Source: an uncultured Erysipelotrichaceae bacterium (GTDB lineage: Bacteria; Bacillota_I; Bacilli_A; RFN20; CAG-826). Taken from it: a stretch of 51,277 nt of DNA. Each line of letters begins with the position of its first letter. The stretch's first letter is position 1. Positions 20,014-33,814 of this stretch are shown here, piece after piece. Made by a program: the position numbers and the translations under genes. A model generated the notes under the pieces. That model did no database searches, was not told the origin of the DNA, and saw nothing but the letters and a program-made list of their open reading frames with translations. Where the stretch lies: positions 1-51,277 of the forward strand of contig CADBUF010000071.1 of NCBI GenBank assembly GCA_902797795.1, written 5' to 3'.

Positions 20014-20041
20014 GGATTAGTTAACATAATCTCTTTTTTAT
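20012..20041 (+). terminator. Intrinsic terminator overlapping the dxs stop
   Basis: Eight-bp stem AGGGATTA / TAATCTCT (one G-T pair) with a 7-nt loop, followed by TTTTTT. The last base of the dxs TAG is in the stem. Confidence 0.8.
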
Positions 20042-20069: not shown

Positions 20070-21257
20070 ATGGCAAGAGTGATTGTACATATTGATTTAA
20101 ACGCCTTCTTTGTTCGATGCGAAGAAATTAAAGATCCGTCTTTAGAAAATAAAGCAGTTGCGATTGGCCACTTAGGTAGAGGTGGCATTGTTTCAACTTG
20201 TTCATATGAAGCGCGTAAATTTGGCGTTCGTAGTGGAATGCCAATGAATAAAGCAGTGCAACTATGTCCACATCTACTCATTATTCATCCTGACTACCAT
20301 TTCTATGTGGCAATGAGCCATAAATTCTATAACTTTATTTATTCGATTACCAAAAATATCGAGATGGCTTCAATTGATGAATTATTCGCTGATTTTACAG
20401 ATGTCATAAAAAAAGAAAAGAATGTCGAATTATATTTTAGACATATTCAACAAACACTATATGAATTAACAGGATTAAAATGCTCCATTGGAGTTGGTCC
20501 AACTAAGTTTTTAGCAAAGATGGGAAGCGATTATCAAAAACCAATGGGTTTAACCATCATTAGAAAAAAAGACATTGCTAGAATGCTTTATCCTCTTCCA
20601 ATAGAAGATATGTTTGGTGTAGGTAAAAAAACCGCTCCTAGACTAAAATTTATTGGTGTTAAAACTATTGGTGATTTAGCCAACTCCCTATCTAAAAATG
20701 ATGAACAAGTATTAAACATACTTGGTAAATTTGCTTTCGAATTAAATGAGTGGTTGAGTGGTAAAGGCAGTGACAAAATTATTACCGAATATGAAGATCC
20801 AAAATCAATCGGAAATTCTACTACATTAAAAGAAGACACCAACCAATATGAAACGATTAAATCAACCTTTGAAATCATTGCTGAAGAAGTAAGTGAAAGA
20901 GCAAAAAAAGAAAATAAAATTGGAAACACCATACAAATTATGGTGAAAGACACTAACTATAAAGCTCATAACAAATCAATTACTTTTAATAATCACACTA
21001 ATGATGTAAAGACTATTTTTAATTATGCTATCAAACTATATGAAAATAATTTTTTAGACCTTCCAATTAGAGCGCTAGGAATCACCTTACAAAATCTAAT
21101 TGATGTTAAAGAGATGAAAGTACAAATGACTTTCTTTGATTATGAACATCACGAAGAAGAGAGTAAGACCAAATTATTAATCAATGATTTAAATAGAAAG
21201 ATTAAAGGTAAACCTTTAAAAAGAGCGAGTGAGGTAAAAAATAATGGAAATAAATGA
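20070..21257 (+). CDS. dinB: DNA polymerase IV (Y family)
   Basis: DinB performs translesion synthesis. The 395-aa protein begins MARVIVHIDLNAFF (metal Asp9 and the steric-gate aromatic), has CSYEARKFGVRSGM, the SIDELFADFTDV catalytic acids, and SIGVGPTKFLAKMGSD. HhH thumb (about 165-225) and little-finger domain (about 235-345) follow. The acidic tail (about 350-395) may hold a beta-clamp motif (QMTFFDYE-like). The stop is a rare TGA, lying inside the xerD start region, since the genes overlap by 14 nt. Confidence 0.95.
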   Translation: MARVIVHIDLNAFFVRCEEIKDPSLENKAVAIGHLGRGGIVSTCSYEARKFGVRSGMPMNKAVQLCPHLLIIHPDYHFYVAMSHKFYNFIYSITKNIEMASIDELFADFTDVIKKEKNVELYFRHIQQTLYELTGLKCSIGVGPTKFLAKMGSDYQKPMGLTIIRKKDIARMLYPLPIEDMFGVGKKTAPRLKFIGVKTIGDLANSLSKNDEQVLNILGKFAFELNEWLSGKGSDKIITEYEDPKSIGNSTTLKEDTNQYETIKSTFEIIAEEVSERAKKENKIGNTIQIMVKDTNYKAHNKSITFNNHTNDVKTIFNYAIKLYENNFLDLPIRALGITLQNLIDVKEMKVQMTFFDYEHHEEESKTKLLINDLNRKIKGKPLKRASEVKNNGNK

Positions 21258-22125
21258 TGCAATTAGCAATTATTCTCAATTTCTATTAGTGGAAAAAGGA
21301 TTATCACCTTTAACCGTTAAAGCCTATCAAGATGATTTAAAACAATTCTTTATTTTATTTAACGATAAGAAATATGTTGAAGAATTAGAGGCTGACGATT
21401 TAGTGATATTTTTAAACGAGGAATTAAACAAAGGGTATCACGTCTCAACTGCTTTAAGAAGATTATCGTCTATAAAAAACTTTTATGCCTTCTTAAAGAA
21501 GGAAGGATTATTTTTAGAAGATCTACCAGAAATTGATCCTCCAAAAAGAGAGAAAAGACTCCCAAGTTGTTTAACAGTGGAAGAAGTTGAAGATTTACTT
21601 AACGCTCCAAATATAAAAACCCCATATGGGTTAAGGGATAAAGCAATGTTGGAATTGATGTACGCTAGCGGGCTACGTGTTAGCGAGCTTCTTTCTTTAG
21701 AAAGAAAAAACATTAATCTTCAAAAGGGAATTGTTAAAGTATTTGGTAAAGGCGCCAAAGAAAGAAAAGTGCCAATGGGGGATTTTGCCGAAGAATACGT
21801 TGTTAAATATCTTAATGAAGCAAGAGAATTACTACACGGCAAAGACTCTAAATACTTATTTTTAAATAAAAATGGAAAGCCATTGAGTCGAGTTTATTTC
21901 TTTAAACAGATTAAAAAATACGCTCTTGAAGTAGGGATAGATCGTCCAATCTCTCCACATACTCTTAGGCACTGCTTTGCTACCCATATGTTAGAAGGAG
22001 GAGCGCAGTTAAGAACAGTGCAAGAAATGCTCGGCCATTCTAATATTGCAACCACACAAATATATACACATGTATCAAGCAAGAGAATTATTAGTGCATA
22101 TGATTTGTTTATGAAACAAAAATAA
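21244..22125 (+). CDS. xerD: Site-specific tyrosine recombinase XerD-like
   Basis: Xer recombinases resolve chromosome dimers at dif. The 293-aa protein has the SAM-like N-terminal core-binding domain (about 1-85) and a catalytic domain with Arg145 (ASGLRVSELL), a Lys in FGKGAKERKVP, His239/Arg242 (HTLRHCFATHM), His265 (LGHSNIATTQ) and nucleophile Tyr274. All catalytic residues are present. The start overlaps the end of dinB, and deoB follows after 33 nt with its own Shine-Dalgarno, an arrangement like B. subtilis ripX/xerD-deoB (drm). The dif-like sequence 3.8 kb downstream is a likely target. XerC versus XerD cannot be decided rigorously. Confidence 0.92.
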   Translation: MEINDAISNYSQFLLVEKGLSPLTVKAYQDDLKQFFILFNDKKYVEELEADDLVIFLNEELNKGYHVSTALRRLSSIKNFYAFLKKEGLFLEDLPEIDPPKREKRLPSCLTVEEVEDLLNAPNIKTPYGLRDKAMLELMYASGLRVSELLSLERKNINLQKGIVKVFGKGAKERKVPMGDFAEEYVVKYLNEARELLHGKDSKYLFLNKNGKPLSRVYFFKQIKKYALEVGIDRPISPHTLRHCFATHMLEGGAQLRTVQEMLGHSNIATTQIYTHVSSKRIISAYDLFMKQK

Positions 22126-22158
22126 TGTAAACTATTAGACGTTGAAAGGAATTATATT

Positions 22159-23382
22159 ATGTCATTTCCATATAAAAGAATTTTTGTAATCGTCGCTGAC
22201 TCAGCCGGAATTGGTTATGAACCAGACGCCGATAAATTTTTTAATGGTGATAGTAGTGACTGGGGAAGTAATACCTTCGTTCATATCGCAGAAAAAATGC
22301 CTAACGGATTAAATATCCCAAATATGAATGCGATTGGTATTGCTGATTTAGCAGATATTCGCGGAACTCACAAAGTGAGTCACCCTCATTCCTATGTTGC
22401 TAGAGCAAGAGAAGTTAGTAATGGTAAAGACACAATGACAGGTCACTGGGAAATGATGGGAATTAACACCAAAGTCCCATTCAAAACATTTACAGACACT
22501 GGCTTCCCAAAAGAATTAATCGATGAATTAGAAAAGAGAACAGGACACAAAGTTATTGGCAATTGCGCCGCTAGTGGTACCGAGATTCTTGTTAGACTTG
22601 GCGAAGAACAAATGAGAGATAATTCTCTCATCGTCTACACATCAAGTGATTCAGTTCTTCAAATTGCTGCTCACGAAGAAGTTACTGGAGTTAAAGAATT
22701 ATATCGCTGCTGTGAAATCGCTAGAGATATCTGCATGAAACCTGAATGGATGGTGGGAAGAATCATCGCTCGTCCATATTTAGGTACTAATAAGAATAAT
22801 TTTAAAAGAACAAGTAATCGTCACGACCTCGCTTTAAAACCATCATTACCTACAGTAATGAATGTCTTACAAGAAAACAAATTTGAAACTGATTGCGTTG
22901 GTAAAATTAGTGACATCTTTGATGGATATGGAGTTAGCAAGACTCAAAAAACTGTCTCCAATGAAGACGGAATGGATAAGACCATCAAGGAACTCAAGGA
23001 ATTTGATTTCACCGGATTATGCTTCGTTAACTTAGTGGAATTCGATAGTGAATACGGACATCGACGTGACCCAATTGGTTATGGCGAATGCTTAGAAAGA
23101 TTTGACAAACGTGTTGGTGAATTCATGAAAAACATGAAAGATGATGATTTATTAATCATCACTGCTGATCACGGTAACGATCCAACTTGGCCAGGAACTG
23201 ATCACACTAGAGAAAAGATTCCTCTACTCATGTATTCTCCATCCATTAAAAATGGAAGATATCTTGAAGAAAGAGAAAGCTTCGGTGATATTGGCGCAAC
23301 AGTCTTAGCAAACTTCAACTTAAAAATGCCATCTAATTTAGTTGGTAAACCAATTGAAGAATTGCTCAGCAAAGACAAATAA
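22159..23382 (+). CDS. deoB: Phosphopentomutase
   Basis: DeoB interconverts (deoxy)ribose-1-phosphate and -5-phosphate in nucleoside use. The 407-aa protein belongs to the alkaline-phosphatase superfamily: metal ligand DSAGIGYEPDA near the N-terminus, the phosphorylated Thr in GKDTMTGHWEMMG, and the C-terminal metal motifs EFDSEYGHRRDP and TADHGNDPTWPGTDHTRE. GAAAGGA is 9 nt before the ATG. It closes the + strand half of the window and ends at a bidirectional terminator. Confidence 0.96.
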   Translation: MSFPYKRIFVIVADSAGIGYEPDADKFFNGDSSDWGSNTFVHIAEKMPNGLNIPNMNAIGIADLADIRGTHKVSHPHSYVARAREVSNGKDTMTGHWEMMGINTKVPFKTFTDTGFPKELIDELEKRTGHKVIGNCAASGTEILVRLGEEQMRDNSLIVYTSSDSVLQIAAHEEVTGVKELYRCCEIARDICMKPEWMVGRIIARPYLGTNKNNFKRTSNRHDLALKPSLPTVMNVLQENKFETDCVGKISDIFDGYGVSKTQKTVSNEDGMDKTIKELKEFDFTGLCFVNLVEFDSEYGHRRDPIGYGECLERFDKRVGEFMKNMKDDDLLIITADHGNDPTWPGTDHTREKIPLLMYSPSIKNGRYLEERESFGDIGATVLANFNLKMPSNLVGKPIEELLSKDK

Positions 23383-23387
23383 AAAGT

Positions 23388-23416
23388 AAGCTTAGGTTAG
23401 TCGCCTAAGCTTTTAA
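23388..23416. terminator. Bidirectional terminator between convergent genes
   Basis: Nine-bp stem AAGCTTAGG / CCTAAGCTT with a 7-nt loop; T-rich on both sides (CTTTTAATTT on +, CTTTTTATTT on -). It serves deoB and the opposing permease, whose TAG (23405-23407) lies in the stem. This is where gene orientation flips. Confidence 0.85.
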
Positions 23417-24169
23417 TTTAAGAATTTTCTTTAATATGTCTAGTAACAAAGTTACTAATAACATGAATATAATAGCGATTAAAGAGAAAGCAAAAGTTGG
23501 TACCATCCCTTTATCTGAATTAGTGTAAGCAAGTTTAATTGCTCTTCCTAGACCATAATCTGAAGAGCCAGAAATAACTTCTGCCATAATTTCAATTTTA
23601 AAGGCTAAAGCAAAGCTAGATATTAAACCTAAAGAAATGGTGGGTAACGCTAATGGAAATTTCACTTTCACGTTAGCTATAAGTCTAGATGCACCATCAA
23701 CTTGTGTAGCTTTTAAAATGTATTCATCAATATTTCCGTATCCTGCAACAGTAGCTTCATAGACTATCGGAGCAACAATTAATATCACAATAAATATTGG
23801 AGCGTCACTAAGTCCTGCTAAAACAAGGAACAAAAAAGTAAGTGCTGCTGTTGGTATTGCTTTTAAAGCAATAATAGTGGGATTAAAGACATATTTTAGA
23901 TGTCGATAATTACCAACAATAGAACCTAAAATTATTCCTCCAACTGAAGCTATACCAAAACCAATGAGCATTCTTTTAAATGAACCCCATAATGACTTAT
24001 AAGTAAATGTGTCTCCTAAATAAACCCACATTTCTTCAATGGTTTCAATGGGGTTAGGAAAGATTGATTGCTTTTGGCCGGCAATAAAATAAATTGCATA
24101 CCATAAAGCAAAAAATAAAGCGACGCCAAAAAAGGTTAAGAAGTACTTATTTATAAAAAACTTCTTCAC
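23405..24169 (-). CDS. ABC transporter permease, SsuC/TauC/ThiX-type
   Basis: A 254-aa membrane protein with about six helices and the BPD-transport inner-membrane motif (EAA loop ATQVDGASRLIANVKVKFPLALPTISLGL), of the nitrate/sulfonate/taurine/thiamine-precursor permease family. The start is GTG at 24169, 23 nt inside the end of the upstream lipoprotein gene, so translation is coupled. No ATPase gene follows: the operon ends here at a terminator. Substrate is unknown. It is probably controlled with the lipoprotein gene by the divergent Crp-type regulator. Confidence 0.85.
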   Translation of the reverse strand: MKKFFINKYFLTFFGVALFFALWYAIYFIAGQKQSIFPNPIETIEEMWVYLGDTFTYKSLWGSFKRMLIGFGIASVGGIILGSIVGNYRHLKYVFNPTIIALKAIPTAALTFLFLVLAGLSDAPIFIVILIVAPIVYEATVAGYGNIDEYILKATQVDGASRLIANVKVKFPLALPTISLGLISSFALAFKIEIMAEVISGSSDYGLGRAIKLAYTNSDKGMVPTFAFSLIAIIFMLLVTLLLDILKKILKLKA

Positions 24170-25091
24170 TTAATTCACCGATGATTGGACTTGTTAGATT
24201 GATGAAATTTTGAATCTCGTCTTTGATATCAATGGCTTTTTTAAAGCCAATACTTAGACTATTGTTATTTTCAATTGTTCTTTTAGCAATTGAAGCAGTG
24301 AAACCAAAGAGGTTCTTTTGCTCTAATTCGCTTCCTAAAGATGAAATACGATCACTTACATAACTTGGGTTCGCTAAACCAAGATTAATGCTTGTTTCAA
24401 GGGTTGATAAGAAAGCATTAACTTGAGTAGGGTTAGCTCCGTTTTTCACGAAAACAGATGCTTGTGTTAGTGTTTTTCCTCCGCTTTTTTCTTTGAAAAC
24501 ATCTTGCACATTAACGAAAGGATATTTGTTTAAAGAAGTTAAAACTGGTTCAGCGGTAAAAACGTAATCATATTGAACGTTATCAAATATTCCATTATCA
24601 GAAATAATCATTTTGGTGTCATCAGCAGAATTAACCGGTCTTACTTCTAATCCTAAATTTCCATAGCAATAGTTAAACACCTTACCAGGGATATCGTTTT
24701 CTTGGAAAATAATGATTTTATCACCGGAATTTATAGTTGCATCTAAATCAGTTCCACATGAATAAATGTAGAAGTTACCAAAGGTAACGGTTGCCGCTAT
24801 CTTATAAGAGGCATTTTGTTTTACTATCTGCATTAACCCTCCATTAGTAGGTGCAACAATGATGTCATATTTATCAGTTGCAAACATTGGAATTAAGCCT
24901 TCTTTAGGGTTAGTAGTAGTGGTAAAGGTCTTATCATTAGCGAGGTTAAATAAAGCAATAGCAGGGGCTCCTGTTGGCGCTAAAACATTTAATCCATAAG
25001 AATATGATATAGCAGATTGATCAGATCCTTCGTTCCCACAACTCATTACTCCAAATAAAGCGGCAGTCATTAATAAAATAGTTTTTTTCAT
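24147..25091 (-). CDS. ABC substrate-binding lipoprotein (NMT1/SsuA-like)
   Basis: The 314-aa protein starts at ATG 25091 (MKKTILLMTAALFGVMSC), with TTGAGG 9 nt upstream. A signal peptide ends in the lipobox VMSC, so Cys18 would be lipidated. The body, with LNVLAPTGAPAIALFNLAND and two alternating lobes, is typical of periplasmic-binding-protein-like II fold partners of SsuC/TauC permeases. The ligand cannot be read from sequence. Its promoter region shares the CGTGATT/AATCACG palindrome with the divergent Crp-type gene; the palindrome would sit near -40, suiting activation. Confidence 0.82.
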   Translation of the reverse strand: MKKTILLMTAALFGVMSCGNEGSDQSAISYSYGLNVLAPTGAPAIALFNLANDKTFTTTTNPKEGLIPMFATDKYDIIVAPTNGGLMQIVKQNASYKIAATVTFGNFYIYSCGTDLDATINSGDKIIIFQENDIPGKVFNYCYGNLGLEVRPVNSADDTKMIISDNGIFDNVQYDYVFTAEPVLTSLNKYPFVNVQDVFKEKSGGKTLTQASVFVKNGANPTQVNAFLSTLETSINLGLANPSYVSDRISSLGSELEQKNLFGFTASIAKRTIENNNSLSIGFKKAIDIKDEIQNFINLTSPIIGELSEEVFYK

Positions 25092-25129
25092 AATCGTTTT
25101 CCTCAATTGCTATTCTATATGAATAAATA

Positions 25130-25135
25130 TATAAT
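25130..25135 (+). promoter_or_regulatory. -10 box of the Crp-type gene
   Basis: TATAAT, 22 nt before the preferred ATG (25158). The operator palindrome begins 3 bp downstream and would cover the transcription start. Confidence 0.55.
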
Positions 25136-25138
25136 AAA

Positions 25139-25154
25139 CGTGATTCAAATCACG
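25139..25154. promoter_or_regulatory. Crp-type operator palindrome
   Basis: CGTGATT (25139-25145), CA, AATCACG (25148-25154): a perfect inverted repeat containing GTGA-N6-TCAC, the Crp half-site pattern. It covers the likely start site of the Crp-type gene (self-repression) and lies about 40 bp upstream of a likely start for the divergent lipoprotein gene (TATAGA at 25119-25114 on the minus strand). Confidence 0.7.
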
Positions 25155-25157
25155 AAT

Positions 25158-25745
25158 ATGAACAAATTAGTCAATTATTTAACAAAAGAATCATTAAACA
25201 ATCATGGTTCGATAAGCGCAAAAAAGAATCAAACTTTATTTTTTGAAGGCGATGAATGCCTTAAGGTAGGCATTATTCTCAGTGGAAAAGTTAGCATCAT
25301 ATCTTATTTTGACGAAGGAAAAGAAGTGATCTATAACACATTAGGAAAAGGCGAGATGTTTGGCAGTAACCTTATTTTTTCTAGTTCGCCTTACTATAGA
25401 GGCGATGTTGTCGCCATAGAAGAATCGGAAATTGTCTATATAAATAAAGAAGAACTATTAAGCCTGCTTAAAAATGATACCTCAATATTAGAGCTATACC
25501 TCAAACAGCAGTCAGACTTTAGTAAGAGGCTTAATTTTAAGATCAAACTATTAACAATAGATAGCGCAAAAGAAAGAATAAAATATTATCTTACATTTAA
25601 CAAAAACGAAATTGAGTATAAATCAATAACTAAGCTTGCTAAAGAACTATATTTATCAAGAGAAACAACGAGCAGAACTTTATATAAAATGGATAAAGAT
25701 GGCGATATCAAAATCGCTAATAAAAAAATTATCTTGAAGCAGTAA
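25158..25745 (+). CDS. Crp/Fnr-family transcription regulator
   Basis: The 195-aa protein has an N-terminal cyclic-nucleotide-binding-like beta roll (about 15-115, with the GxxFGS turn as GEMFGS), a dimer helix (about 115-140) and a C-terminal winged helix-turn-helix. The recognition helix LSRETTSRTL has the Arg-Glu...Arg pattern that reads GTGA in Crp. There is one Cys only, so no Fnr-type iron-sulfur cluster. In-frame starts exist upstream (ATG 25119), but the operator would then be coding, so ATG 25158 is preferred. No Shine-Dalgarno is visible. The effector is unknown. It is one of few + genes right of 23.4 kb. Confidence 0.88.
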   Translation: MNKLVNYLTKESLNNHGSISAKKNQTLFFEGDECLKVGIILSGKVSIISYFDEGKEVIYNTLGKGEMFGSNLIFSSSPYYRGDVVAIEESEIVYINKEELLSLLKNDTSILELYLKQQSDFSKRLNFKIKLLTIDSAKERIKYYLTFNKNEIEYKSITKLAKELYLSRETTSRTLYKMDKDGDIKIANKKIILKQ

Positions 25746-25752
25746 TAATGAG

Positions 25753-25780
25753 ATTAGTAGTTTTTTAGTAGGTGGATAAT
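25753..25780 (+). promoter_or_regulatory. ATTAGTA 11-bp tandem array, site A
   Basis: ATTAGTA (25753-25759) and TTTAGTA (25764-25770) are spaced by 11 bp, followed after 4 bp by GATAAT (25775-25780). The array begins 8 nt after the stop of the Crp-type gene and points toward the dif site. A DnaA-box-like GGTGGATAA (25771-25779) overlaps its end. Confidence 0.55.
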
Positions 25781-25798
25781 TACACATTTTGTGGATAA
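25771..25798 (-). promoter_or_regulatory. Two DnaA-box sequences near dif
   Basis: On the minus strand, TTATCCACA (25798-25790) is a perfect match to the DnaA-box consensus and TTATCCACC (25779-25771) matches 8 of 9. They are 19 bp apart and in the same orientation. Confidence 0.5.
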
Positions 25799-25886
25799 AA
25801 TCACACACTTGATAATCAATACTAAATATTTTTATATAGTTAAAATCATTATTCTAGTTTGTTAATTGGCTTTTTCTATATATTTT

Positions 25887-25914
25887 AGTTAACATAATGC
25901 TCATTACACGAAGT
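25887..25914 (-). other. dif: Putative dif site (XerC/XerD recombination site)
   Basis: On the minus strand the left arm is ACTTCGTGTAA, the centre TGAGCA and the right arm TTATGTTAACT. Against the B. subtilis dif arms (ACTTCCTAGAA and TTATGTAAACT) this is 8/11 and 10/11, with the better-kept XerD arm as expected. It lies in a 229-bp convergent gap next to the gene-strand switch and 3.8 kb from xerD. Orientation, spacing and context all agree; recombination itself is inferred. Confidence 0.8.
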
Positions 25915-25926
25915 ATTGATATTCGT

Positions 25927-25955
25927 ATAAATAAAAGCGGATAACAAAATCCACT
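25927..25955 (-). terminator. Terminator of the yqeG-yqeH-yhbY-nadD operon
   Basis: Minus-strand stem AGTGGAT / ATCCGCT (one G-T pair) with loop TTTGTT, followed by TTTATTTAT; 20 nt after the nadD-yqeK stop. Confidence 0.75.
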
Positions 25956-25974
25956 AATTCGACTCATCTACCAA

Positions 25975-27069
25975 TTATTTGTAGTACTGTTTTAAGCAAG
26001 CAACTGTTAATTCGTTTCTATAATTAATGCCATGTCTATCATAGTATTCAATATTTGATTTCATGACATCCTTAAACCCTTGTTTTAAACTACATTTCAT
26101 TGAATTTATAAGATTTTTTGAGTCAAAACCCCTAGTTGGCTCTATTTTATCTGCACAATAAATGATTAAACCGATGTCTGACATGCCACTATTTGCGGTT
26201 GTATGATACTTAATTGCGTCCAAAATCGTTTTATCATGTATACCAAAGTCTCTTTCAGCAATAATTGACCCTGTAAATTGATGATAAATAATCCTTGGGA
26301 GATACAAATATTGTGGAAAATATTCCTCCATAAGAGCTTTTTCTTCATTTCGAGGTAGTTCTTTCGCACAATCATGAATTAAACCAGCGATTAACGCCTT
26401 TTTCGGTTCCACTACTTTGTTACTTTTTGCGATTTCATAAGAAAGCTTACCAACACTTTTAGAATGAAGGTATCTATCTTCACACATTCTTTCTTTTATT
26501 TTACTCATAAAATAAAGGTCGTTATCAATGATATAATCAAGAACCGAATCGGTTGTTTCCAAATTCTTTAATTCACGAATATCTGTGGAATTAATATCGT
26601 TTATTTCTCCATCGATTTTTCGCATGTTATATTCAACGACATTCTTTTTGTTGATTTCGTAGTTATCTCGGCCAAAAAAGATAATATTCACTATTTCTGA
26701 TATCTCTTTTGCGGATTTCCATTTATGGAAGCTATTAACTTGATCAGTACCAATTAGCAGAAATAAATTGTCATTAGGATAAAGCTTTTTAAAATGCTTG
26801 ACTGTATCAATCGAATAATTGATGTCATTCTCTAGCTCTGCTTCGTATTTTGAGACACTAAAAACGCCTTCGCGATGAAAATCCTTAATTGCTAGTTCAA
26901 TCATTCTAATTTTGTCGTTAATTGGGGCAGAGTCACTCTTCCATACAGAAATCTTTGCAGGAATAAAAATCACTTCAGCATCTAAAGTCTTGCTGGCGGC
27001 TTCCGCCATATTTAGATGACCGAGGTGAATTGGATCAAAAGCACCACCAAATAGAATTATGTTTTTCAT
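25975..27069 (-). CDS. nadD: NadD-YqeK fusion: nicotinate-nucleotide adenylyltransferase plus HD hydrolase
   Basis: Residues 1-190 are NadD, which makes deamido-NAD: GGAFDPIHLGHLNMAE (nucleotidyltransferase HxGH), and SSTDIR-like NSTDIREL near 180. Residues about 193-364 are a YqeK-type HD domain with RYLHSKSVG, LIHDCAKE, YHQFTG and YHTTANSGM; YqeK enzymes hydrolyse Ap4A symmetrically. In B. subtilis these are adjacent separate genes; fusion is known in mycoplasmas. The ATG overlaps the yhbY TGA (ATGA). The usual next genes, rsfS and yqeM, are absent: the operon ends at the dif gap. Confidence 0.92.
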   Translation of the reverse strand: MKNIILFGGAFDPIHLGHLNMAEAASKTLDAEVIFIPAKISVWKSDSAPINDKIRMIELAIKDFHREGVFSVSKYEAELENDINYSIDTVKHFKKLYPNDNLFLLIGTDQVNSFHKWKSAKEISEIVNIIFFGRDNYEINKKNVVEYNMRKIDGEINDINSTDIRELKNLETTDSVLDYIIDNDLYFMSKIKERMCEDRYLHSKSVGKLSYEIAKSNKVVEPKKALIAGLIHDCAKELPRNEEKALMEEYFPQYLYLPRIIYHQFTGSIIAERDFGIHDKTILDAIKYHTTANSGMSDIGLIIYCADKIEPTRGFDSKNLINSMKCSLKQGFKDVMKSNIEYYDRHGINYRNELTVACLKQYYK

Positions 27070-27356
27070 TTCAATTTGATTTTAGGGTTTTCTTTATTCC
27101 TACGGAATAATATAATTACTCTCCCAACAACAGATACCACGTCAGCGTGTAGTTTGCTTGATAAATCAAGGGTGAGTTCCATGATTGGAGTCACTGCGCT
27201 CTTAAGCACTTCAATGCGTATTAATTCACGCGCTTCGAGTGCCTTATCAAGCATGGTTAGTAAAGATTCGGTAATCTCACTTTTACCAACTTGATATTTT
27301 GTTTTATCTTGTAAAGACAAAGTCTTTAATTGCCTTTTTTCTTCTTTTGTAAGCAT
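27066..27356 (-). CDS. yhbY: YhbY/YqeI CRM-domain RNA-binding protein
   Basis: The 96-aa protein is a single CRM domain: LTKEEKRQLKTLSLQDKTKYQVGKSEITESLLTMLDKALEARELIRIEVLK. The family GxxG loop is here KYQVGKSEIT. YhbY binds pre-50S particles. It lies between yqeH and nadD as in B. subtilis, though the intervening aroE is absent. Its stop is one of the few TGA codons in the window and overlaps the nadD ATG. The Shine-Dalgarno is weak. Confidence 0.92.
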   Translation of the reverse strand: MLTKEEKRQLKTLSLQDKTKYQVGKSEITESLLTMLDKALEARELIRIEVLKSAVTPIMELTLDLSSKLHADVVSVVGRVIILFRRNKENPKIKLK

Positions 27357-27358
27357 TT

Positions 27359-28495
27359 TTATCTCACTTTAGATAAGCATTCTTTAACAGCACATCCTTT
27401 TGGAAGAAGGATTCTTAATGTTTGACCTTTGCCTCTTGTAGAGAACCAGCAAAGTCCTTCTACAGAGATGTCGTGTCTTAAATCATCATCCTCGAGTTCA
27501 TATTCGAACATGTCGTAGTCTCTAAAGGAATCAAATCTTTCACTAACTGGACGGCAGAATTTTTTCTTTAAGTTTAATTTCAATAAATCATCAACTTTGT
27601 TGATGGCACAGACTTTAATCTCTGTTTTCTCAGACATGAATGTACGCACAGATGTGCGATGTCCGCTGATGATGTATAAAACAGCAAGATTACCAACCAT
27701 AATCGCGCTACCTTCACCAATGAATTTTCTTGTCATCACCACTTCCTTTTTAGGAACGATGATTTTTTGTAAATCTTTTTCAACTTTGGATAAAACAGAA
27801 GTTGAATTGCTCAAATCAGGAAGCTCATATAGATATGAGGAATTAGAAAGAGGAATTTCTAGAACACTGGAATTGGTTCCTGGATACAATTCAGTCTTGA
27901 TTTGCCACTTTGTAGTGTTGACATAGTTCTTAAGGAATTTGTTAATGAGGGTGGTCTTGCCACTATTAACTTCACCGATAAGATAAATATCTCTATATTT
28001 ACGTTGTTCTTTAAACGCTTGTCTTAAAGTGTTGATGTCAATTTGATCTTCGTTACCAATTAATTTGATATCGACTGGATTAATACCAAATTCAGAGAAT
28101 CTTTCATCAAGATACCTTATAAGCATGCTATCAGTAACATCTTTAGGGAATAAATCACGTTTAGAGCCAATAACGATAACATTAAGCTTTTTGACTTTGC
28201 GAACAACATCAGGGTTTAATGTTCCATTAAAGGAGAATAAATCAACAACCCAAACAATTAAAGAATCGGTAGCCACTGCATCATTAAGAATTTTAATGAT
28301 ATCTTTGTCAGTTTCGTGTAACAAAGAACCCGCATTCAAAGTAACCATCTTTTGGTAGCAGTTATTACAATAAGGGATTCTCGGAACACCGTTCTCAATG
28401 ATTTCTTTAGAAATGTAACCAATCTGTTTTGGGCTATCACTTTGAAGAATTGCACCACAGTTGTGACATCTCAATACTCTTTTTGCTGTTGCCAT
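27359..28495 (-). CDS. yqeH: Ribosome-assembly GTPase YqeH (RbgA-like, circularly permuted)
   Basis: YqeH acts in 30S assembly. The start ATG 28495 gives MATAKRVLRCHNCG, following GGAGG with 10-nt spacing; an earlier in-frame codon at 28516 lies inside yqeG and has no support. The N-terminal zinc finger has CHNC and CNNC. The GTPase motifs come in permuted order: G4 GSKRD (about 123-127), then G1 GEVNSGKTTL (about 175), then G3 ELPD. The C-terminal domain (about 230-378) is normal. 378 aa is about the usual length. Confidence 0.94.
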   Translation of the reverse strand: MATAKRVLRCHNCGAILQSDSPKQIGYISKEIIENGVPRIPYCNNCYQKMVTLNAGSLLHETDKDIIKILNDAVATDSLIVWVVDLFSFNGTLNPDVVRKVKKLNVIVIGSKRDLFPKDVTDSMLIRYLDERFSEFGINPVDIKLIGNEDQIDINTLRQAFKEQRKYRDIYLIGEVNSGKTTLINKFLKNYVNTTKWQIKTELYPGTNSSVLEIPLSNSSYLYELPDLSNSTSVLSKVEKDLQKIIVPKKEVVMTRKFIGEGSAIMVGNLAVLYIISGHRTSVRTFMSEKTEIKVCAINKVDDLLKLNLKKKFCRPVSERFDSFRDYDMFEYELEDDDLRHDISVEGLCWFSTRGKGQTLRILLPKGCAVKECLSKVR

Positions 28496-28496
28496 A

Positions 28497-29018
28497 TTAT
28501 TTATTCCTCCAGTCAACTAGTTTGCCTTTTTTTCTCAAATGCCTGCGTATTGGTCGATCAAAGATTCGATTAATATGTGTTGTCCATTGGTCTTCTTTAA
28601 CAACTTTTTCTGTAAGAACAACTCGTATCTTTGCACCTCTAGCAGCAATGACATCAGTCATCGTTTGGTCTCCAACCAACATGACTTCTTCTTTTTTTAG
28701 ACCACGTTTATTGATTTCTCGGTCGAGCCTTTTATGACCTGGCTTATGGGCACTCGCAAGAAATTCAACGCCAAGAGCGTTAGCGTATCCACATACACGA
28801 TGAGGCTTGTTATTACTAATAATAACGGGATTTAAGCCGTGTTCTTTAAGTTTTTTAACAAGATCCAACGTTTTTTGTTGTGGAGTTCTAGCTCTAAAAC
28901 TATCTAATGTGTTATCCAAGTCCATAAACAATGTTTTCACGCCATTTCTAACAAAGAAATCAACATCAATTTCGTAAATTGATTGAGCGTGAGCAAACGG
29001 AATGAACTTTTTAAACAT
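28497..29018 (-). CDS. yqeG: YqeG-family HAD phosphatase
   Basis: The 173-aa protein has HAD motif I as FMDLDNTLD (about 31-39), motif II in VIISNN (about 63-68), and motif III/IV as KPGHKRLD..MLVGDQTMTDV. It resembles phosphatidylglycerophosphatase/YqeG-type HAD enzymes; the true substrate of YqeG is uncertain. It opens the yqeG-yqeH-yhbY-nadD cluster, as in Bacilli. AGGAAAATT precedes the ATG. A terminator-like hairpin and ATTAGTA site C lie upstream. Confidence 0.92.
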   Translation of the reverse strand: MFKKFIPFAHAQSIYEIDVDFFVRNGVKTLFMDLDNTLDSFRARTPQQKTLDLVKKLKEHGLNPVIISNNKPHRVCGYANALGVEFLASAHKPGHKRLDREINKRGLKKEEVMLVGDQTMTDVIAARGAKIRVVLTEKVVKEDQWTTHINRIFDRPIRRHLRKKGKLVDWRNK

Positions 29019-29044
29019 AATTTTCCTATCAATAATGATAAACG

Positions 29045-29070
29045 AAAAAGTCTCTACTTTATAGACTTTT
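29045..29070 (-). terminator. Terminator between parC and yqeG
   Basis: Minus-strand stem AAAAGTCT / AGACTTTT with a 9-nt loop and trailing T residues. It is 113 nt downstream of the parC stop, and about 45-50 nt downstream of the start predicted for array C. It could end parC, a short RNA, or both. Confidence 0.65.
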
Positions 29071-29121
29071 ATTATTTTTTAGCAATATTTCCTTTCTTTT
29101 AAAAGAAAAAGTAGTCAATTG

Positions 29122-29156
29122 TCTATATACTAATTAACTACTAATTTCATACTATA
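29122..29156 (-). promoter_or_regulatory. ATTAGTA 11-bp tandem array, site C
   Basis: Minus strand: ATTAGTA (29145-29139) and ATTAGTA (29134-29128), 11 bp apart, with a degenerate TATAGTA one step further upstream (29156-29150), then TATAGA (29127-29122) immediately after. The stretch 29145-29121 matches site B, differing by a 3-bp gap. Confidence 0.6.
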
Positions 29157-29182
29157 TTTTTATTAGATATAACTATGTTATA

Positions 29183-31792
29183 TTAATCTAAATCGTCAAA
29201 TATAGAAATCTGCTCAAAACTGCCAGAATCCTTCTTTTCTTCACTATTATCTTCGTCTTCATTTACTGGTTTGCTAGTTTCTTGAACAGGAGATTCTTTA
29301 GCAATGATTGGATGAGAGACATTGTCTTTACCAATATGAATAATATTGGTATCAAATACAAAGCTCAGCTTTTGTTTAGCAGTCATCTCGTCAATATTCT
29401 TTTTGGCGTATTGAGCTTCGGTATTTCTAAAGTCACTAACTTCAATTGTTTTGACGCTGCGATCATTTAAATATAATGTTAAGAACAAACTATCAACCTT
29501 TTCAAGCCTCATAGCATTAATAATGCTATGTGGTTCACCTTTAAATGATTGAAGGATTGATTGAACCTTTCCTAATCTACCGGTTCTAAAGAATTTTGTG
29601 CTATCTGTGATGCGCATGTGTCCTTTATCAGTAAATAGTAATATCTTTGCTCTTTCGTCGCGCTCAAAGGCCAATAAGCCCGCTCCTTGGTTATTTCCAA
29701 GAGCTGAGATCGACTTCACGCCACCAGCTTTATTACCTAATATCGTCAATTCGTTCTCATTAAACATTGAACAATTACCGTTATTAGTTATAACTAATAA
29801 ATCACTATCACCAGTTAATAATTCAACAGCAACAACCGCGTCATTAGTTAAAAGTTTCATGTATCTGACTGGACGTGAATGTTTAGCTAAATCAATCATC
29901 GATAGAGGCATACGCTTGATTTGACCAAATTTGGTCAATATACCAAGATATAAGTCATTTCTCATCTCACTTAAAGTCATGGCCCTAATAATCTTTTCAC
30001 CACTTCCTAAAGTTGTGAATTCATTAATATGGCTTCCTTCGTCTTTCCATTTGTTATCAGTGAGATTATGCACACCTATAACTGCATAGTTACCTAAATT
30101 TGTAAAACAAATTAGGTAATCGGTTGTCATAGCCTTACCAATTCCAACAGCCATATCACCATCTTTTAAGCCTGGTAGTTCATTATTATAACTGTTATAG
30201 CTCCTTATAGAGCTACGTTTTAAATAACCATCATAGCTAACAGCGACCATTACTTCTTCTTTAGCAATGAGTTCACGTTTATCAATTTCTTTTGTCTCGC
30301 CTTTTTCAATTATTTGAGTACGACGATCGTCACCATATTTTTCCGAAATTGCTTTAAGCTCTCTAATTAAAACTCTGCTGAGTTTTGCTGGATCTTCAAT
30401 AATCCCTTTTAAGGTTTCAATCTCGTTTTCTAATTGAGCCTTTTCCTTTTCTAAAATCAATTCATCAGTGTGACTTAATTTATATAAAGGCATGGTCACG
30501 ATTGCTTCTGCTTGTTCATTTGTTAAGGAGAAACGATTGATCAAGTTAACTTTACTATCTGCTTTGTCTTTACTCTTACGAATAATATCAACAACTTCAT
30601 TAATATTTAATGAAGCAAGAATCAACCCTTCAACGATATGGAGTCTATCACTATTCTTCTTTAAGTCAAATTTACTCTTACGAGTAATAACGTCAACTTG
30701 ATGGTCGATATAGGCATCAACAAAATCTAATAAATTGAGAGTCTTTGGGCGTCCATCAACAATCGCCACCATATTAGCTGTATAACCGGTAAGAAGATTA
30801 GTTTTCTTCATTAAATACTGAAGAATGAGATCAGCTTTAGCGTTCTTTTTGATATCGACAACGATACGAATTCCTTTGTAATCGGATTCATCTCTAACTT
30901 CTATAATGCCGTCAATAGCCTTAGAATGCCTAATTTTGTCTATTTCATAGACAAGTTGAATTTTCACCACTTTATAAGGTATTTCTGTGATGATTATTTG
31001 ATTCATGTCTTTTCTTTCGATGATTTCCGCTTTACCCGCTACTTCGATTCTCCCTCTACCGGTTTGATATATAGAGTCAAGTCCACTAGAGCGGTAAATA
31101 TATCCACCTCCTGGGAAGTCTGGGCCCTTAACAAAAATCATTAAATCTTCCACTGTTGCGGTCTTATGTCCAATGCGGTAAATAACCGCATCAATAACTT
31201 CTCTTAAATTATGTGGAGGTATTTCAGTTGCTAAAGCAACTGCAATTCCTTCAGTTCCGTTAACTAATAGGTTTGGAAATCTCGCTGGTAAAACAACTGG
31301 TTCAAATTCTGTATCATCAAAGTTGTACTGCATATCAACAGTTTGCTTTTCAATGTCAGAGATGAGTTCGTTTGATAATTCCGCTAATCTACTTTCGGTA
31401 TAACGATATGCCGCAGGAGAGTCGCCATCAATAGAACCATTATTACCTTGGAAATCAATTAATGGGTATCTCACTTTCCAATCTTGGCTCATTCTTGCTA
31501 GAGCTTCATAAATTGATGTATCGCCATGTGGGTGATAAGTACCCATAACCGCTCCAACGGTGTGAGCACATTTCTTTGTTGGCTTATTAAAAGTGTTACC
31601 ACTTTTATACATTGAAAAAATAATTCTTCTTTGAACAGGTTTTAAGCCATCTCTAACATCAGGAATAGCACGATCTTGAATGACATATTTTGCATAAGTT
31701 GCATAACGATCACTCATTACATCTTCAAGGGGTTCAGTGCTAATATTTTCGTCAAAGGTTTCTTCAACGATGACATCTTTTTTCTTTGCCAT
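29183..31792 (-). CDS. parC: DNA topoisomerase IV subunit A
   Basis: ParC is the DNA-cleaving subunit that decatenates sister chromosomes. The 869-aa protein has the quinolone-region GTYHPHGDTSIYEA (about 84-97), catalytic Arg130-Tyr131 in AAYRYTE, and a C-terminal beta-pinwheel (about 500-830) without a GyrA box, ending in an acidic tail. ParC is preferred over GyrA because parE precedes it and plsY is divergent, the B. subtilis plsY/parE-parC order. AAGGAGG within the parE end precedes its ATG. Topo IV acts late in the cycle, near dif. Confidence 0.92.
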   Translation of the reverse strand: MAKKKDVIVEETFDENISTEPLEDVMSDRYATYAKYVIQDRAIPDVRDGLKPVQRRIIFSMYKSGNTFNKPTKKCAHTVGAVMGTYHPHGDTSIYEALARMSQDWKVRYPLIDFQGNNGSIDGDSPAAYRYTESRLAELSNELISDIEKQTVDMQYNFDDTEFEPVVLPARFPNLLVNGTEGIAVALATEIPPHNLREVIDAVIYRIGHKTATVEDLMIFVKGPDFPGGGYIYRSSGLDSIYQTGRGRIEVAGKAEIIERKDMNQIIITEIPYKVVKIQLVYEIDKIRHSKAIDGIIEVRDESDYKGIRIVVDIKKNAKADLILQYLMKKTNLLTGYTANMVAIVDGRPKTLNLLDFVDAYIDHQVDVITRKSKFDLKKNSDRLHIVEGLILASLNINEVVDIIRKSKDKADSKVNLINRFSLTNEQAEAIVTMPLYKLSHTDELILEKEKAQLENEIETLKGIIEDPAKLSRVLIRELKAISEKYGDDRRTQIIEKGETKEIDKRELIAKEEVMVAVSYDGYLKRSSIRSYNSYNNELPGLKDGDMAVGIGKAMTTDYLICFTNLGNYAVIGVHNLTDNKWKDEGSHINEFTTLGSGEKIIRAMTLSEMRNDLYLGILTKFGQIKRMPLSMIDLAKHSRPVRYMKLLTNDAVVAVELLTGDSDLLVITNNGNCSMFNENELTILGNKAGGVKSISALGNNQGAGLLAFERDERAKILLFTDKGHMRITDSTKFFRTGRLGKVQSILQSFKGEPHSIINAMRLEKVDSLFLTLYLNDRSVKTIEVSDFRNTEAQYAKKNIDEMTAKQKLSFVFDTNIIHIGKDNVSHPIIAKESPVQETSKPVNEDEDNSEEKKDSGSFEQISIFDDLD

Positions 31793-31795
31793 AAG

Positions 31796-33730
31796 CTACT
31801 TTGCCTCCTTTAAAAATGTATCAATTTGGTTGAAATCAACGTTTTCTTCAACCCATTTTCTTCTTAAACTTGCATCATTTCCCATGAGAATTTTTACTCT
31901 TTTCTCCACTAGGAAAGGATCACTGATGTCAACTTGGATAAGTTGACGAGTCTTTGGATCCATTGTTGTTTCCTTTAATTGAATAGCGTCCATTTCACCA
32001 AGACCTTTATATCGAGTGACTTTTGCTCCTCCACCAACAACCTTCTTTGCTTTTTCTAAATCAGCGTCATTCCAAGCATATTGTTGAATGATTTTTTTGC
32101 CTTCTTCTTTATATATTCTATATAAAGGTGGAACAGCAATATAAATGTGTCCACTAGTAATAAGGGTTCTCATGTAGTGGTAAAAGAACGTCAATAAAAG
32201 CGTTTGAATATGAGCACCATCGGTATCAGCATCGGTCATAATGATAATTTTTCCGTATTTGATGTCTTCGATATCAAAACTTTGACCAAATCCGGCACCT
32301 ACGGTGTTAATAATTGTGGCAATTTCCTCATTATGGAGAAGTTTGTCCAAAGAAATAGAATCTGTATTAAGTGGTTTACCACGAAGTGGTAATATAGCTT
32401 GATGGATTCGATCTCTTCCCTTTTTAGCGGTTCCACCAGCGGAATCACCTTCAACAATAAAGAGCTCGTTTTTAAGGTAGTCTTTAGATTGAGCAGGTGT
32501 TAATTTATCAGACAAAATAACTTCTTGTTTGGCTTTTTTAGAACTACGAGCTTCATCTTTAGCTTTTCTAGCAGCAATACGTGCTTGTTGACTATCAACG
32601 CATTTTTTAATAATCCTTAACGCATTTTCCTTATTTTCAGTTAGATAATAAGTAAACTTATTATAAATAAGATTGCTAACTACTGGTAAGGCTGCTGGTG
32701 TACCAAGTTTTCCTTTAGTTTGTCCTTCAAATTCAAGCAATTCTTCAGGAACTTTCAAAGAGATAATCGCGGTTAAGCCTTCACGGATATCACTACCTTC
32801 AAGTTTCTTTCCTTTCAATAGTCCTTGAGCTTCTGCAAAATCATTAACTGCACGAGTAATTCCGGCTCTAAAACCAGACTCATGAGTACCACCATCTGAA
32901 GTTTTTACGTTATTAACGTAAGAATAGATTGTTTCGTTATAATCTTCATAGCAATATTGAAGAGCAATTTCTGTTTCAATATTAGTCACCGCATCAACAT
33001 CAGAAAAGGAAAAAACGTCAATAATTGGATTCTTTTCTTCATTGAGGTTAGTGATGTATTCAACAAGACCATTTTGATAAAAATATTCTTGTTTTTCGTT
33101 TGTTCTTTCATCATAAATGATGAAACGTACGCCTTTCATTAAGAAGGCACTTTCTTGTAAGTGTGAGGAGATTGTGTCGTATTTAAAATCAACAGTAGAG
33201 AAAATTGAGGCATCTGGTTTAAAGCGAACCAAAGTACCGTGTTTCTTTGAAGCGCCAAGGTTTTCTAAAGGTGTAACTAAATGGCCACCATTTTCAAATC
33301 TGAGGTGATAAGCACCACCATTTTGATAAACCGTGACATCACACCATTCACTTAATGCGTTGGTGACTGAAGCACCAACACCATGAAGTCCACCAGCGCT
33401 TTTATAGACTGATGAATTAAATTTTCCACCAGCGTGTAATTCAGTGAAAACGATTTCTACACCTGGTCTGCCTGTTTCTTTATTGATTCCAACCGGAATT
33501 CCACGACCTTCGTCTAATACGGAACAGCTCCCGTCTTTATGAAGAGTAACTGTGATGTTTTTACCGTATCCACTTAATGCTTCATCGACTGCGTTATCGA
33601 CTACTTCCCAAACGAGGTGATGGAGGCCACTTGAATTAGTGCTACCGATATACATTGCAGGTCTTTTTCTAACACCTTCAAGGCCTTGCAAAATGTGAAT
33701 ATCGTTCGCAGTATATTGTCTCTCCGCCAT
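31796..33730 (-). CDS. parE: DNA topoisomerase IV subunit B
   Basis: ParE is the ATPase subunit. Start ATG 33730 (MAERQYTANDIHILQGLEGVRKRPAMYIGS) follows AGGTAGG; in-frame codons further upstream run into the plsY promoter region. The 644-aa protein has the GHKL ATPase motifs (DNAVDEALSGY; DEGRGIPVG; GGLHGVGASVTNALS), the transducer domain, and the TOPRIM domain with EGDSAGGTAKKGRDR and TDADTDGAHI. The C-terminal tail motif TRYKGLGEMD..L is present. It is co-transcribed with parC. Confidence 0.94.
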   Translation of the reverse strand: MAERQYTANDIHILQGLEGVRKRPAMYIGSTNSSGLHHLVWEVVDNAVDEALSGYGKNITVTLHKDGSCSVLDEGRGIPVGINKETGRPGVEIVFTELHAGGKFNSSVYKSAGGLHGVGASVTNALSEWCDVTVYQNGGAYHLRFENGGHLVTPLENLGASKKHGTLVRFKPDASIFSTVDFKYDTISSHLQESAFLMKGVRFIIYDERTNEKQEYFYQNGLVEYITNLNEEKNPIIDVFSFSDVDAVTNIETEIALQYCYEDYNETIYSYVNNVKTSDGGTHESGFRAGITRAVNDFAEAQGLLKGKKLEGSDIREGLTAIISLKVPEELLEFEGQTKGKLGTPAALPVVSNLIYNKFTYYLTENKENALRIIKKCVDSQQARIAARKAKDEARSSKKAKQEVILSDKLTPAQSKDYLKNELFIVEGDSAGGTAKKGRDRIHQAILPLRGKPLNTDSISLDKLLHNEEIATIINTVGAGFGQSFDIEDIKYGKIIIMTDADTDGAHIQTLLLTFFYHYMRTLITSGHIYIAVPPLYRIYKEEGKKIIQQYAWNDADLEKAKKVVGGGAKVTRYKGLGEMDAIQLKETTMDPKTRQLIQVDISDPFLVEKRVKILMGNDASLRRKWVEENVDFNQIDTFLKEAK

Positions 33731-33748
33731 ACTATACCTACCTTTTCG

Positions 33749-33764
33749 CCGTTCATAATAACGG
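33749..33764. repeat. Palindrome in the parE/plsY divergent region
   Basis: CCGTT (33749-33753), CATAAT, AACGG (33760-33764). It lies 19-34 bp upstream of the parE ATG and includes TATTAT on the minus strand, a possible parE -10. An operator role is speculative. Confidence 0.4.
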
Positions 33765-33814
33765 AAAATATTGAAAATATAAAGCAATTTAGTAGAATAG
33801 ATAAGGGGCAAAAA

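Follow-up and report, generated by a model that had tools for sequence, protein, structure and literature searches.

A very probable dif site with a variable centre at the replication terminus of uncultured rumen and gut Bacilli

Is a 28-bp motif lying between two converging genes of an uncultured Erysipelotrichaceae bacterium the dif of its chromosome, the site at which chromosome dimers are resolved? The motif occupies positions 25887–25914 of the window, by which we mean the whole 51,277-nucleotide stretch of DNA analysed (contig CADBUF010000071.1), and reads ACTTCGTGTAA-TGAGCA-TTATGTTAACT on the minus strand; the exact sequence confirms the position, strand and centre proposed in a first-pass annotation. 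It has the 28-bp layout of dif, with two imperfectly inverted 11-bp arms set 6 bp apart: an XerC-type arm, ACTTCGTGTAA (25904–25914), for which the order consensus is ACTTCG(C/T)ATAA; a central hexamer, TGAGCA (25898–25903), that follows the clade pattern T-N-N-N-Y-A; and an XerD-type arm, TTATGTTAACT (25887–25897), invariant except for its last base across 12 genus-level loci, all three read on the minus strand. Compared with the Bacillus subtilis dif, ACTTCCTAGAATATATATTATGTAAACT (PMC3025954; also given in two B. subtilis papers), a direct count returns the 8/11 matches on the XerC side and 10/11 on the XerD side that had been reported for the arms.

Like a dif, the motif is found once: the draft genome (1.17 Mb in 78 contigs, 86% complete) contains a single exact copy, and no better or second match was found in either the window or that 86%-complete draft. 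A degenerate dif pattern allowing up to 3 mismatches has a single match in the window, shuffled sequences averaging 0.01. Set against the consensus of its relatives, ACTTCGCATAA-N6-TTATGTTAACT, the site shows 2 mismatches in 22 positions, and matches that good are expected, under a composition model, 8e-5 times in the window and 2e-3 times genome-wide. A second exact XerD arm, at 20019–20029, was rejected as another dif because it has no left arm, and the window holds no repeated or oppositely oriented dif copies.

The surroundings are those described at first sight, intergenic and convergent. A 229-bp gap (25746–25974) holds the site and separates a Crp-family regulator on the XerD-arm side (25107–25745, plus strand; PF00027, 1.6e-19) from a nadD-yqeK fusion on the XerC-arm side (25975–27069, minus strand; NF005519, above cut-off), the latter followed by an intrinsic terminator-like hairpin (25936–25955, minus strand) that adjoins dif. 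From left to right across the site GC skew changes from positive to negative; its cumulative maximum for the window falls inside the gap at 25794, 93 bp from dif, and the AT-skew extremum at 25753; the motif is intergenic and at the terminus skew switch, as a dif should be. Elsewhere in the window, xerD, dif and both topoisomerase IV genes fall within 13 kb at the terminus (21244–33811). A chromosome-wide view comes from a relative, G037, the window's own genome being fragmented into 78 contigs. On the 1.482-Mb contig that makes up almost the whole G037 assembly, dif lies at 298.5 kb and dnaA at 1,023.7 kb, a separation of 725 kb or 48.9% of the contig that places dif opposite the origin, and the sampled skew changes sign at both. 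These results support the proposal that the window spans the terminus region. Among the loci of 18 relatives, skew is positive before and negative after dif in 16, and the adjacent genes converge on it in 17, the exception being the phage-carrying genome G043.

The 28-mer is kept in close and distant relatives alike, whereas its flanks are not. An 11-6-11 dif site with near-invariant arms and divergent flanks is present in 245 of the 279 genomes of the order, and in 142 of the 150 order genomes whose completeness is 90% or more and whose contamination does not exceed 5%; the dif pattern was found in 70 of 77 genomes searched. Across 12 loci of the window's genus, aligned in ungapped register, the arms average 1.78 and 1.96 bits per position against 0.60 and 0.74 for the 60-bp flanks. 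Across hundreds of genomes dif mostly occurs as one copy per genome. A second dif-like site in G009 (C8:55234) was set down to chance, having an imperfect arm (GTATGATAACT) and lying inside an ORF and off the skew switch. A second, inverted dif-like site lies 4 to 23 bp from dif in two genomes (G308:C1:764335-764394 and G288:C1:1181635-1181713) that share a genus in another family of the class.

Gene order around the site is conserved as well. The arrangement parE-parC-yqeG-yqeH-nadD/yqeK-[dif]-variable genes-deoB-xerD is kept in most loci of the order, and with it the orientation of dif relative to the gene cluster, down to 25–50% protein identity. In the window, deoB (22159–23382, plus strand) sits between xerD and dif, as in most relatives, and topoisomerase IV subunits A (parC, 29183–31792; best model TIGR01061, 804 bits, cut-off 813) and B (parE, 31796–33811; best model TIGR01058, 889 bits, cut-off 900) follow on the minus strand. 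The exceptions are two loci of family f8, L158 and L165, with deoB on the other side of dif (and xerD too in L158): either the genes moved while dif kept its orientation, or dif itself flipped. An xerD–dif link unique to the order can be rejected, as several other orders of the class share it; in these, 12 of 20 loci have deoB-xerD beside dif and a further one has xerD alone, and the link is therefore older than the order. The tendency reported across bacteria is the opposite, with xerC near dif and xerD near the origin (PMC3025954). In relatives (L035-L053, L155-L174), the dif–deoB segment on the XerD-arm side differs in cargo: some carry an ABC transporter, some a Crp regulator and some neither of these, a pattern reminiscent of an insertion hot spot.

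Might the motif instead be the attachment site, or its remnant, of a phage or plasmid that exploits the Xer recombinases? Such elements do carry dif-like sites, and one occurs at the same spot in G043, a member of the same family (locus L035), where two dif-like sites 5,455 bp apart flank a filamentous-phage-like element of 5.5 kb (L035:6101-11583; G043:C3:94100-99582). It encodes a rolling-circle-type Rep (PF01719, 1.3e-15) and a Zot-family ATPase whose match narrowly passes the curated cut-off (PF05707, 2.6e-4); it also has several membrane ORFs of about 64 residues and a larger ORF placed where an adhesion protein would be expected. A stretch of 17 bases, TTCACTTCGTATAATAT, is common to its two sites, which diverge on the XerD side: on the right, the arm is host-like, TTATGTAAATT, and the centre TATCTA is also that of G173 of the same genus; on the left, the XerD-side arm is degenerate, TTATGATTACT. 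Integration catalysed by XerC, of the CTXphi/VGJphi type, predicts just this, identity confined to the XerC side (PMC4246890; PMC5357621). We read the element as inovirus-like and integrated at dif, and it may be active. Such integration implies that Xer recombinases act at dif in this family, and the insertion suggests that dif is a live Xer target. A search of IMG/VR found no relatives of the G043 phage proteins, nor did the family's other 223 genomes yield any for the Zot protein. Another inovirus-like contig, in the window's genus, carries a 66-residue protein resembling a coat protein and an unambiguous Zot (3.6e-21) (L175, G003:C51), and is distinct from the dif-bearing contig of that genome.

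For the window, however, an attachment site is a highly improbable explanation. There is one site, with no second copy and no element between flanking dif-like sites; it is flanked by housekeeping genes whose arrangement most of the clade shares; and in hundreds of genomes the site occurs mostly once, at the skew switch. A lone site in the same syntenic place across families is not an occasional insertion. More improbable still is a replication-fork arrest site of the RTP/Tus type, or another protein-binding site resembling dif: the location at the terminus would suit it, but the conserved unit is exactly 11-6-11 with a free centre and is linked to xerD, and the window lacks the repeated or oppositely oriented copies noted above. 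Chance resemblance can practically be dismissed, for, the isolated exact right arm at 20019–20029 (no left arm) notwithstanding, only about 8e-5 matches are expected in the window and the site is conserved across the order at the same syntenic place. On the sequence evidence, the 28-mer is almost certainly the chromosome's dif; with no better match found in the window or the draft genome and the 28-mer conserved, the proposal of a dimer-resolution site is well supported.

The genome encodes the partners of such a site. The tyrosine recombinase gene xerD (21244–22125, plus strand; TIGR02225, 331.1 bits, cut-off 329.6) ends 3.76 kb from dif, in agreement with the 3.8 kb given at first. A second recombinase, on contig C53, has XerC as its best model, slightly under the cut-off (TIGR02224, 327.7 bits against 335.15), and stands directly behind a topoisomerase I-like ORF (the name topA was assigned by eye); an FtsK gamma domain is encoded on contig C46 (44.9 bits, cut-off 30.6). 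FtsK-guiding sequences are another matter. In B. subtilis, FtsK/SpoIIIE is guided by the octamer GAGAAGGG, for which we find no support here: it is absent from the window, where no FtsK-guiding motif was identified, and its counts over 400 kb of G037 are 5 against 2. Strong polarisation is seen for purine-rich heptamers such as GAAGAAG, but codon usage can account for it.

What is observed, then, is a conserved sequence, unique in the draft genome and placed at the skew switch, together with genes for an XerC-like protein, XerD and FtsK gamma; binding, cleavage order and activation by FtsK would follow the analogy of E. coli and B. subtilis. XerC would bind the arm at 25904–25914 and XerD that at 25887–25897. 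After recombination had fused sister chromosomes, FtsK at the septum would pair the two dif copies, its gamma domain activating XerD. XerD would act first, cutting at the 25897/25898 edge and exchanging the first pair of strands, and XerC second, cutting at the 25903/25904 edge and exchanging the other pair. The strands would thereby be swapped across TGAGCA, leaving two monomers.

That centre had been remarked upon as unlike the usual AT-rich TATATA. TGAGCA does differ, but it is not an oddity: variable centres are a feature of the clade. At least 52 different centres occur among the 133 sites listed for families f1, f3 and f5 of the order (raw counts that ignore kinship, f1 being represented by a sample of its sites), and 13 in the 19 genomes of the window's genus among the sites listed. 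Other orders of the class have 9 centres in 51 sites, with TATATA or TGTATA in 40, and the variation in this order is the larger in extent. Within it, the outer T and A hardly vary, and the fifth base is mostly T or C. In Proteobacteria the dif centre varies between species but not within them (PMC2731167). One conceivable, though rather unlikely, cause is selection for escape from filamentous phages that hijack XerC. Such phages would need an attachment site matching the dif bases beside the XerC arm, and a changed centre would be cheap for the host, because both sister copies change together. A neutral alternative, in which self-identity suffices and TATATA is no longer preferred, currently fits just as well; between drift and pressure from dif-using phages, drift is the simpler reading.

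The site itself is an ordinary, well-supported dif of a known kind, and what is unusual is the freely varying centre of its clade. With it, the replication terminus is located for a large group of uncultured Bacilli from rumen and gut, together with their site of dimer resolution, and the clade consensus, ACTTCG(C/T)ATAA-T-NNN-Y-A-TTATGT(T/A)AA, can be used to find dif in draft genomes. What deserves attention is chiefly the variability of the centre and the conservation of the gene cluster at the terminus: with fixed arms, a variable centre and one dif-integrated filamentous-phage-like element, the group offers hundreds of natural variants for asking whether mechanics or phage pressure constrains the centre.

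Among known systems, the closest parallel is dif/XerCD of B. subtilis and other Bacilli, which shares the 11-6-11 layout, arms matching at 8/11 and 10/11, the place at the terminus and the trio of XerC, XerD and FtsK gamma. It differs in the arm consensus, here ACTTCG(C/T)ATAA, in the centre, here TGAGCA and not TATATA, and in the neighbourhood of dif, here beside xerD (and parC/parE), an association not seen in several other Bacilli sampled (L314-L317, L320-L321). Linkage of a recombinase gene to the site recalls difSL/XerS and difH/XerH, but those systems use one recombinase where two are found here. The site does not belong with difSL/XerS, whose centre is 11 bp (PMC5357621) as against 6 bp here, and the XerS model gives the two recombinases 112 and 126 bits against a cut-off of 267. 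From the Proteobacteria (E. coli, Vibrio), the XerD arm is close to the TTATGTTAAAT of Vibrio, and there too the centre varies between species (PMC2731167); but whereas no specific genetic environment is reported for dif there (PMC2731167), most of the order studied here keeps the same one.
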